Shown here: positions 2,337 through 10,000 of the stretch, piece after piece
Position numbering within the stretch: the stretch's first letter is position 1
Layout: every line of letters begins with the position of its first letter
Assembly (NCBI RefSeq): GCF_933775445.1
Contig: NC_065878.1
Location: 12,287,395 to 12,351,394 of the forward strand
Length of the DNA: 64,000 nucleotides
Direction: 5' to 3'
Origin: Argentina anserina
Lineage: Eukaryota > Streptophyta > Magnoliopsida > Rosales > Rosaceae
The notes under the pieces: model-generated
Database searches by the model: none
What the model was told of the DNA's origin: nothing
The model's input: only the letters and a program-made list of their open reading frames with translations
Made by a program: the position numbers and the translations under genes

Positions 2337-2611
2337 TAGGGTGAGAGCCCTGAATTTTTTTTTTAATCTTTCTGGCTGTTGTCACACTAACCGATATTTT
2401 TCAGAAATGCCAAATTTTTAGTCTATCATTTTTGTGTTAGACTACGCGTTGTCACAAGCGTGGAAGTGTTTGCGGAATATTTTTCCGGCGTTCGGTTGAT
2501 TTTCTACGCATTTACAAAGTTAACGGTTTTAAAATGTATTTTCAGAAATACCTATTTTCTATTTTAAATCTTGACCGTCTATTTAAGCGAATTAATCTAG
2601 ACCGTCAGATC

Positions 2612-2624
2612 ACCTTATAAATAC
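2612..2624 (+). promoter_or_regulatory. TATA-like box of the outer LTR
   Basis: CCTTATAAATACC lies about 35 bases before the CT tract, as expected for a U3/R promoter in an LTR. I infer function from position only. Confidence 0.45.
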
Positions 2625-2649
2625 CCAACTACAATACACACCGACACAG

Positions 2650-2741
2650 TCTCTCTCTCTCTCTCTCTCTCTCTCTCTCTCTCTCTCTCTCTCTCTCTCT
2701 CTCTCTCTCTCTCTCTCTCTCTCTCTCTCTCTCTCTCTCTC
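2650..2741 (+). repeat. (CT)n microsatellite
   Basis: About 45 uninterrupted CT dinucleotides lie just downstream of a TATA-like box. Read on the minus strand, the tract gives an artificial Arg-Glu run in an otherwise meaningless open frame. Confidence 0.95.
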
Positions 2742-5357: not shown

Positions 5358-5418
5358 TATGAATATACATAAGAACCCTAGAGCACACCCAACGTGCATA
5401 TAAGAGTAGCTTAGAGAC

Positions 5419-6726
5419 TTGGATTGTTTTCAAGAAGATAGACCTGAAACCCCAGCAGAAGATGATAAAACCACAGTCAAAACTAACTATAAGAAGTGGA
5501 TGCATTCAAACATGATAGCTAAGAATGTTATTAGGCAGTCTATGTCTAAAAGCATTAGAGGATGTGTGGCGGAGCCAGAATTTGCTACTGATTTTCTGGA
5601 GGCCGTGTCAGCTAAGTTCAAGGAGAATGAGAAAGCTGAGTTAGCTAGGCTAAACAAGGAATATCATAGCCTGTAATACTCAGGAACTAGAGGAGTCAGG
5701 GAGCATTTATTAAAGTTGATTAATATCAACAATAGGCTTAAAGAGATGATGGTGGGAGTACAAGACACCTTGCTGGTGCATCATGCACTACTTCCAAGCA
5801 GTTTTGACAATCTCAGGACTAGCTATAATGCTCAAAAGAAAAACTGGACTCTAGATGAACTAATAGCCATATGTTCTGATGAGGAGGAGAGGATTAAGAA
5901 GCAAACCCCAACTATTTACCTGCTTGAAAAGCCTAAGAAAATGAAGTCACATCCATAGAACAAGCTTAAACCTAACAAGATCATCTCTAAGACATCAGCA
6001 ACCATATGGCCAAAGGATAACAAACCATTCAGATTCAAGTGCTACTTTTGTAAGAAAGTATGTCACATGAAAAAGGATTGTACTGGCTATAAGGCTTGGC
6101 TAGCTAAAAAGGGTAAGATTATTTCTAATAAAGTTTTTTCTTTAGAAGTTAATCTTGTTAATATCAATCCACAATCTTGCTGGATTGATTCCGGGTCACC
6201 TATTCACATAACTAATTCCTTACAGGGGTTCATAAAGACAAGGACTCCAAGAAGTGAGGATGTTAGCTTGCATGTTGGAAATGGGATGAAGGTGGCAGTA
6301 AAAGCTGCATGATGTCTTAGGCTTGATTTATGAACTGGAAAATTTCTAGTTTTGAATAACGTTTATTATGTACCTTCCATGAGAAGGAATTTAGTTTCAG
6401 TTTCTCAATTGGTTAAAGCTGGATGTAGTTTTTTGATTGAAAATAAAGGAATTCTTATTTTTCAAAATAAAGAGCAAATTGGTTATGGTGTGATATTGGA
6501 TGATCATATAAAGTTAAATTGTTCAATATCTTAACAAGATATTTCTTTTGTTGAAACAGATAACACTAAAAGTACTAGCACCTTAACTGGTGTTAAGAGA
6601 ACCAGGAACAATGAAAAATCTGCATATTTATGGCATAGAAGATTAGGCCATGTATCCAAAGAGAGACTGAAACTATTAGTAAGGAACACCATTTTAAACG
6701 AGCACATGCACTTAAAGGTGGGAGAT
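5419..6726 (+). pseudogene. Copia gag-protease remnant
   Basis: Broken frames on the plus strand encode Copia parts in the normal order. 5419-5676 and 5716-5958 are gag, with an in-frame stop between them. A CX2CX4HX4C zinc knuckle (CFYCKKVCHMKKDC) lies at about 6040-6081. An aspartic-protease-like CWIDSGSPIHIT follows at about 6178-6215. The gag-pre-integrase motif LWHRRLGHVSKERL lies near 6629-6670. The reading then meets the purine tract and LTR with no integrase core or reverse transcriptase. Stops between blocks show the protein is no longer made whole. Confidence 0.85.
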
Positions 6727-7231
6727 TGTTAGATCAATTTTGAACATATCACATATTATATGATTATCATGTTTAATGTCATAATGTATTTCTACATGGA
6801 AACAAAGATAGTATCAAATCTAGTTCCTAATGATTTAGTGTATTATATCATTATGGTAAGGAATCCTAATTTAAGTCTAGAAGTAAGACTACAAATCAAT
6901 ATTGAATCAGGAATCTAAATAAGATGACTTAACTTACAAGATGTCTTTAATGGAATGACTCTTAAGGGTTAAAAGATTCTGTATATATAGATGGTAAACG
7001 TCCCTGTTATCACTACGATTTATTTGCGTAAGTTTCTGTCCATTGAGAAAGCAGAGAGTAGTGACTAACAGAAGACTTTGCCTAACACCTTGTGACTTTG
7101 GATTAAGGCACAATGGATCACGGTGTTGTTGTTCATGATGATGGTAAGTTAATCTAATTCACTAAAGTAACGATTAGTTGTTATGCATATGATCGTTGGT
7201 TTTGTACTCATATCATGTAATTTAATTTACA
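6727..7231 (+). repeat. Copia 3' LTR
   Basis: This is a direct repeat of 4386-4889, preceded by a polypurine tract and followed by the near-duplicate target CTAAT. Confidence 0.92.
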
Positions 7232-10000
7232 CTAATTTGCTAGCATTGGTCTCGATTTAGGAGAAGACTGAAGAAGAATTAGAAGGCTTGAACATCGATT
7301 ACAGAGAACCTACTGCAATCATCCATTTTACCTTCACAAATGTGTAGAAGGTAATTGATTTGATATCACGGCTTCAATATCCTCATTTCGACCTTTGGAG
7401 TACAAAGTTGAGTTTGTGTGTTTTCTCAATTTAATATAAGGAGTCAAGGAAGGCAGCAGGGTACCTTAGGCAGTGAGATTGAAGAACAGAGGAGATATTG
7501 GAAGCTACCAACGTCAACTTCAATTTTCTGGAAATTTTAGAAAGGTAATTCCCCAATCCCTTTTGATTTCCAGTTTAAAGTTGAATCATATAGGTAGCAA
7601 TACCTAAGTATGAGGTTAGAACGTAATGCATGGATTTTCTTTTATAGCTTGGAGATGAGCAATGGAAGGAAGGAAAATTCTAACATCGATATTCAACTTT
7701 CCGGCAAAGATTTTTCAGCTACAGCTAAGGATCATTGAGGTAGACTTCCCGTCCTTCTCCACTTGCGTAACAGTTGAGTTTCTAAATTGGAAAATATATA
7801 TTGGGTGTCCTTAGTAACGTTTAGAGTATCATTTTATAATCGATGTTTGACCATTACTTTGGTCAAACCGGGAATAAGGAGTCAAACCTCCTATTTCGTC
7901 TGTGTATTGACACTTAATTATTTCATATTTACAGTCGTTCGATGATTAATTATTCGAGAGTTGAAACTTGGAGAAGACACGAATAAAGCAGAAGCAAGAA
8001 GGTGGATTGGACGTTGGCTGCGCATTATTTCCAGGTAGGGTGAGCTAACCCCATTTGTGTATTTCATGCCTATTAAATTCATTGTCTATTCCTCGGTGAT
8101 GTTTATGGTTGAAAATTGCATATATGAGTTAGAAATGCTAAAACCCGAGGATAGGCAGATACTTCGTGAGTGAGTAGACCTGAGAGTGGATGGGGCCCGA
8201 TATTCCGGTAACCCCTCGGTGTCGATAACTGTAAACCTCCAGAGGGGCAATACCCTGTTTATTATTGGATCCATACCTTACAGTATTATTGAGGGCATTC
8301 CATTAAATGGACACTCTAACTCATTTGTTGTTTCAATAAAGTCAGTCGGCCTCGACTTAAGAGGTGACTATTTCGCCTCCTAGTTGTTAGGATCGGTCAC
8401 CACTGACTTGATATTATTGATGGTCATCATGCATGTTTTGCATTGTTTTTCCTTGATTAATAAACTTAGTTTGTTTCTCATTAAATGATTTAAAGAACAT
8501 GTTCATATCTAAATGTTTTAAGTTTTTATAAAACTTAGCCAACCTTACTTTTAAACCACATTGGTGGGCTGACCCCTACTGGGTGAGCGAGGATGAAGCT
8601 CACCCCTATATATTCATTATAGGTTTCTAGACTTATTTCGGGGCTTAAGATATGAGAAGTTAAGAGTACATTTCATTTGAATCTATTATGTTTAGACCAG
8701 TTCTTTGTATATTATTTCTTATCGATGTTTGTACATTGAACCTCTTATTCCGAGGTTGTGATTTCATTTCTGTCACCATTCTTGTTTATCTTGGGTTGCA
8801 TGTATTACTTTTAGTTATGGGCTGGTGACACCCATTTCTACTTATGTTTTTGAAACCTTGTTACAGCTCGCGTACATCTTAGTAAATATTTTTTTGTGTT
8901 AGAAATGTAAAGGTTCATTTCATTGTAAACTTGTTAGCTTGTTTCCTTTCGCGAAAAATTTAAGCAGATTTTCAGTTATCGAGTGTTAAAGTCGAACTAC
9001 GTTCGTTTTGTTCGCTTGTTAACTTTCTATTTTAAAATTTTCAATATGTCCATTTTCCCTTCCGAGATGTGACAGTTATATAAAACAAACATTCTAATTA
9101 CATAATATTTTTTTATTTTAATTATGTCTTATAATGCTAATGGGTCTGGCCGACCCGCTTCTTGGACCGGCACGGGCCCGAGCCCAGCCAAACATAGCTT
9201 GGGCCGTGGTTCGGGTCGGGCTTAATGCTTAAGTAAATGGGTCGACCCAAGCCCGAGCCCGGCATGATAAATAAATGAGACAGCCCGAGCACGACACGAG
9301 CACGGTTTTAGCCCGCTTAAAATAGGCTTAGGCGGGGCAGTACGGCTCATTTGCCACCTCTACCCTAAACCTTACGAGACTTGTTATATTCTCGGATTGA
9401 CTTTCGTTACATGTTTTTACACTAACAATATATATATATCTACTGTTCTATATATATATGGTTTTCAAACCTAACTACGGTTAGGTTGTCTCACCCGCAT
9501 CGGATTAGCGAGGATGAGTGCTCACCCCTACTTTTCATGTACCTGGCAACCGGTTCGCGATGACTTGGATAGGTGCTAGTGGCATTGCATCGCTCGTGGT
9601 TCACTTTCTATACTGAGGAGCCAGTTTTCGGTGTGACTTCGTATTTACCCGATCTTCGTTCATACTTCAACAATCGCACGACGCGTACTCTATTACATTG
9701 CATTTCAGTCGTGCAGTTGTTCCCTTTTGGCCCATATTTATTGAGATGATGTGTGATTTTTTTGTCATACTTGAACTTTCATTTTAATTGATACATTTCG
9801 ATTATTCGTATTTATTCAGTAAATTGAGCTTCATTTACTTTTATCATGAATTTACTATTATTTACCTATCCTCATAGTTTTATAGTCGTAAGTTGGAGTT
9901 GTCAATGCGTATGATCCCGTATCGATTGATACTAACTTAGGACTACGGCGATTACTGCTGCATTTCGGGACTGGAAATAGTCTCGGGGTGTGACATAGGG

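Follow-up and report, generated by a model that had tools for sequence, protein, structure and literature searches.

Four nested transposable elements in the Argentina anserina genome, with later deletions

Four transposable elements of known kinds lie one within another at positions 2337-10000 of the analysed window, a 64,000-nucleotide stretch (C7:12287395-12351394) of the 236.8 Mb, 146-contig assembly of Argentina anserina. With a probability of about 95%, the nest is the product of ordinary four-step nesting of transposable elements followed by deletions. It is a true nest, well preserved and well supported, and it is unsurprising. Plant genomes regularly contain nested insertions and solo LTRs (PMC7251063, PMC11020628, PMC2672092). 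The nest shares with nested plant LTR retrotransposons and solo LTRs the placement of younger inside older elements, the 5-bp duplications, the solo LTRs and the later deletions, and it differs from them in detail only: its two LTR layers are separated by a DNA transposon, and a deletion has erased one of the junctions. All comparisons were made with other copies within the same genome, with sequence read from seven contigs of 24-37 Mb, and the searches scored the best candidates only.

Reading of the sequence confirmed the nest and its target duplications at the coordinates given by an earlier note on this DNA. The outer LTR is bounded by identical TAGGG pentamers at 2337-2341 and 9996-10000, the second LTR by identical GTTAT pentamers at 3635-3639 and 9075-9079, and the Copia element by CGAAT at 4381-4385 and CTAAT at 7232-7236, which agree at four of five bases. 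A chance origin of these duplications was rejected because relatives place the element edges at the same bases. The nesting itself supports the insertion order proposed in that note, with the outer LTR first, followed by the hAT-like element, the second LTR and Copia.

The outermost layer is a solo LTR in two parts, both on the forward strand: a left part at 2342-3312, which runs to a deletion breakpoint where homology to relatives stops, and a right part at 9363-9995, assigned by homology to relatives. When positions 9363-10400 were used as query, 39 of 40 non-self matches ended at query positions 624-639, where 633 corresponds to window position 9995, and the remaining match is the second piece of another copy. 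Among eight relatives checked at both ends, five are flanked by exact 5-bp duplications, and lengths vary from 1666 to 2772 bp (2692-2772 bp in four of the eight). The relatives start with TGTGAGCCC-like sequence and mostly finish in GTGTGACA. In relative L019, the sequence TTGGTATCAGAGC, which we take to be of primer-binding type, is found eight bases past the LTR. The stretch adjoining this relative (L075) contains an RT_RNaseH domain (PF17917), and downstream of it a reading frame without a Pfam match, which may be integrase-like. On the strength of the RT_RNaseH domain, the outer family is read as Gypsy-type. It resembles Gypsy-type retrotransposons in an LTR ending in CA and, in a relative, in a TGGTATCAGAGC primer-binding-type site and RT_RNaseH, and departs from them in that the window copy is an LTR alone. 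The nearest relatives differ between the two halves of the outer LTR (L031 has 81% identity over most of the left part and 77.5% on the right). Positions 2862-3312 have few close relatives (L030, L031 and L013), and these are not the ones nearest to the right half, which suggests mosaic LTR subfamilies.

The flanks of the outer LTR are near-unique: the left 2 kb gives one non-self match that stops short of the junction, and all 21 non-self matches of the right flank begin at least 840 bp from the junction. About 0.9 kb upstream of the outer LTR, a reading frame at 949-1449 on the forward strand encodes a kinase domain (PF07714, PF00069). A small LTR retrotransposon, presumably TRIM-like, is located at 12170-13009 and comprises three LTR-type repeats, of which the first seems to be truncated. 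The whole array is enclosed by a CGTTT duplication (12170-12174 and 13005-13009), and a TTTGGTATCAGAGCC primer-binding-type site is present at about 12669. A 5S-like segment in this array (12.2-13.0 kb) was considered and rejected, with no Rfam match at E up to 1.

Within the outer LTR lies an element represented by a left part at 3311-3639 and a right part at 9080-9362, both on the forward strand and assigned by homology to the family; the bases at 3311-3312 (TT) can be assigned to either the outer LTR or this element. Fourteen loci of the family were read, seven taken from the best matches of each search half (left and right). Both terminal inverted repeats, of the TAGAGGTGGCAAA type, were detected in 13 of the 14 loci at 552-733 bp with up to three mismatches allowed. 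Target duplications of 8 bp were exact in eight loci, matched at 7 of 8 bases in four and at 6 of 8 in one, and the ends were not found in the last. These duplications fit the hAT superfamily, and the window layer is described as a non-autonomous hAT-like element. The short inverted repeats, 8-bp duplications and length of the family are shared with non-autonomous, MITE-like hAT elements, from which the window copy differs in having no left end and a 5.4 kb insert. The right part ends in an intact terminal inverted repeat, TTTGCCACCTCTA, which stops at 9362, and the outer LTR resumes at 9363 with the octamer CCCTAAAC (9363-9370). This octamer is outer-LTR sequence and, judging from the 8-bp duplications of the family, would also be the surviving right duplication of the hAT insertion. 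It is exact at that place in 7 of 17 outer-LTR loci, the others carrying small variants or a shifted register. Of the extent previously proposed for the element, about 3310-9362, position 9362 is the true terminus, whereas 3310-3313 is a deletion breakpoint and not an element end.

The second LTR (LTR2) is inserted in the hAT-like element and was delimited with relatives as a left part at 3640-4385 and a right part at 7237-9074, both on the forward strand. Its edges were also defined by the hAT family: 38 of 39 non-self matches end exactly at 3639, 36 of 40 begin exactly at 9080, and the two search halves of the hAT-like element abut at seven genomic places. The target is single in all 14 hAT loci read, as GTTAT in 12, GCTAT in one and ATTAT in one. 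The hAT-like element resumes on both sides of the bounding duplications, and removal of LTR2 rejoins it as the earlier note had anticipated. Like the outer LTR, LTR2 stands alone, lacks an internal region and is flanked by matching 5-bp duplications. Relative to L059-L061, the window copy is shorter by 531-547 bp near 3777 and by 158-163 bp near 7837. These pieces were probably lost from the window copy, the alternative being an insertion in the common ancestor of the three relatives. No full-length copy of the element that carried LTR2 was seen among the copies examined. The copies at C1:6342324 and C1:6355265 were considered as the LTR pair of one full-length element and rejected, as they are two identical solo copies with identical flanks. 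The two loci concerned, L073 and L074 (C1:6342200-6346700 and C1:6354900-6358900), lie about 13 kb apart and share a stretch of 3760 bp or more, comprising a solo LTR of the LTR2 family with its flanks, at 100% identity; this identity reflects either a very recent duplication or an assembly artefact. At another locus (L016), an outer-family LTR lies within an LTR2-family copy, the reverse of the nesting in the window, so the insertion periods of the two families overlapped.

The innermost layer is a Copia element on the forward strand, with a 5' LTR at 4386-4889, an internal region at 4890-6726 and a 3' LTR at 6727-7231, as determined by alignment of the LTR pair, relatives and domain matches. 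LTR2 relatives carry the Copia target once, as CTAAC, and the left duplication (CGAAT) is therefore the changed copy, altered at its second base. An empty site was found at four of the five LTR2 loci examined (L050, L059, L060 and L061), and a motif search allowing up to 6 errors identified no recognisable Copia site in L073. Removal of the Copia element rejoins LTR2, which resumes on both sides of the duplications, in the form seen at these four loci. The internal region is defective and contains gag remnants and TGGTATCAGAGC, which we take to be a primer-binding-type site. Retrotran_gag_2 (PF14223) gave two partial matches, of which one narrowly passed the cut-off and the other fell below it, and the gag is interrupted. 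The LTR pair and gag are those of a Copia-type element, and the primer-binding-type site and the large family in the genome are likewise shared with Copia-type retrotransposons. Compared with its relatives, which continue, the window copy breaks off after 6702 and has the interrupted gag; it also lacks, at 5423-5427, 832 bp that L062 contains, a deletion with an overlap of 5 bases. Among the best 38 of 174 candidates, none of 111 non-self matches crosses query position 1042/1043 or passes 2317, and both internal breaks therefore appear private to this copy among the candidates scored. The two LTRs are identical at 488 of 504 aligned bases, with 16 differences and one single-base indel (divergence 3.2%, K2P 0.0325). 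If substitutions per site and year are taken as 1.3e-8 or 7e-9, the insertion would be about 1.2 or 2.3 million years old, respectively, subject to gene conversion.

Removal of the hAT-like element, which the earlier note had expected to restore the outer LTR, does not do so; the element has a clean edge on the right side only. On the left, homology to the outer LTR ends at 3312, where 7 of 17 non-self matches end exactly and beyond which none of the 17 extends. The hAT-like element resumes within its subterminal region, about 40 or more bases inside the element, and has lost subterminal bases as well as the inverted repeat and the 8-bp duplication of its left side; the exact loss there is ambiguous, as the subterminal region is repetitive and variable among copies. 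At this place, four outer-LTR relatives contain 1147, 1150, 1162 and 1165 bp that are absent from the window. A fifth relative that matches up to 3312 (L030) was left out of this measurement because its right part is broken, and it carries 739 bp of the missing stretch. With the stretch from L013 (1150 bp) as query, 8 of 19 other outer loci matched at least 1000 bp, another 8 matched 391-961 bp, and the remaining three matched little or none (about 100 bp in L018 and L032, none in L025). The same query gave no match within window positions 1-14000. Given the variable lengths of the relatives and the three loci with little or none of the stretch, the outer-LTR loss of 1.15 kb is an estimate. 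One deletion across the left hAT edge explains both this loss and that of the left hAT end. A short outer-LTR subfamily was rejected as the cause of the missing 1.15 kb, since the four measured relatives that match up to 3312 carry the stretch and since the left end of the hAT-like element itself is also missing.

Two other accounts of this edge were weighed. The left and right outer-LTR pieces may derive from two separate LTR insertions, joined by the deletion that removed the left hAT end, with the TAGGG pair being coincidental. The unlike nearest relatives of the two halves would fit such an origin, and a deletion did occur at exactly that place. The halves, however, share one orientation and complement each other along a single LTR, and the pentamers that bracket them at true ends of the LTR are identical. 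Unrelated insertions would show such identity by chance about once in 1000 cases (4 to the power 5). We consider a double origin highly improbable. Alternatively, the flanking deletion could have been made by the hAT transposase itself through aberrant transposition, and not by later short-homology repair. One deletion edge does fall inside the element's own end, and the loss takes in flanking LTR. Against this, the breakpoint with its 2-base (TT) overlap is away from the terminus, and the other breaks in the nest, at 5423-5427 and at about 7835-7838 (4-base overlap), are outside the hAT-like element. We consider involvement of the transposase unlikely; if it were true, the nest would record transposase-driven loss of a flanking LTR and not random decay.

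A further question is whether LTR2 is a complete short element instead of a solo LTR. All four separate copies for which both ends were read (L059, L060, L061 and L073) are single, as a short element would be, and L074 is identical to L073. At three further places, two LTR2 left ends lie within about 2 kb of each other and may form a pair. Features of an LTR speak against a short element: the window copy has TG...CA ends and a 5-bp duplication, the duplications of relatives as judged by eye are exact in L060 and L073 and match at 4 of 5 bases in L059 and L061, and the repeat scan showed LTR2 to be without terminal repeats of its own. The relatives start with TG in L060 and L061, TC in L059 and TA in L073. 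A complete short element is considered improbable, and LTR2 is treated here as a solo LTR.

Relative ages were compared using terminal branches of the window copies in maximum likelihood trees (IQ-TREE), which are upper bounds on the time since insertion and depend on the copies sampled. The branch lengths were 0.094 for the outer LTR, 0.118 for the hAT-like element, 0.064 for LTR2 and 0.025 for Copia, in trees of 19, 14, 12 and 6 sequences, respectively. The outer tree contained 18 of the 20 outer loci retrieved by position, without L022 and L030, which are broken or incomplete in that region, and the hAT tree 13 of 14 loci, all but L043, in which the ends had not been located. For LTR2, 11 relatives were used, with L050 left out and L073 and L074 not in the set, and the Copia tree contained 5 of 37 relatives matching that stretch. 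In pairwise comparison of 100 column bootstraps per set (FastTree), the hAT branch exceeded that of LTR2 in a share of 0.999 of pairs, LTR2 exceeded Copia in 1.0, and the outer LTR exceeded LTR2 in 0.94 and hAT in 0.09, the last in the wrong direction for the nest. The terminal branches of the two inner layers agree with the nest, and those of the outer LTR and hAT-like element do not. Copia is placed as the youngest layer and LTR2 as the next, but the branches do not place the outer LTR before the hAT-like element.

In the history that we propose, a Gypsy-type LTR retrotransposon would have inserted into near-unique DNA at TAGGG, and LTR-LTR recombination would have left one outer LTR. A non-autonomous hAT-like element would then have entered this LTR at CCCTAAAC, followed by a second, long-LTR element that entered the hAT-like element at GTTAT and likewise became a solo LTR, and by the Copia element, which would have entered the second LTR at CTAAT. 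Deletions at a later time would have taken away the left hAT end together with some 1.15 kb of outer-LTR sequence, as well as most of the coding region of Copia and, probably, parts of the second LTR. As mechanisms we infer that integrase or transposase inserted the elements, that recombination between LTRs produced the solo LTRs and that short-homology repair caused the deletions. The nest gives the sequence of the four insertions, but neither the order of the two solo-LTR recombinations nor the time of the deletions. The second element may still have been complete when Copia entered one of its LTRs, and the outer element may likewise have been complete when the hAT-like element entered it.

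No wider consequence is claimed for the nest. PMC7251063 includes a section comparing the LTRs of nested and pre-existing elements in 4126 pairs, and LTR divergence is described there as at times misleading for nested elements. The nest in the window provides a physical insertion order that is independent of LTR divergence, and the divergence measures obtained here match that order in the case of LTR2 and Copia but do not establish the sequence of the outer LTR and the hAT-like element. The left hAT edge further illustrates that a later deletion may make a layer pass as a clean insertion if one edge alone is checked.
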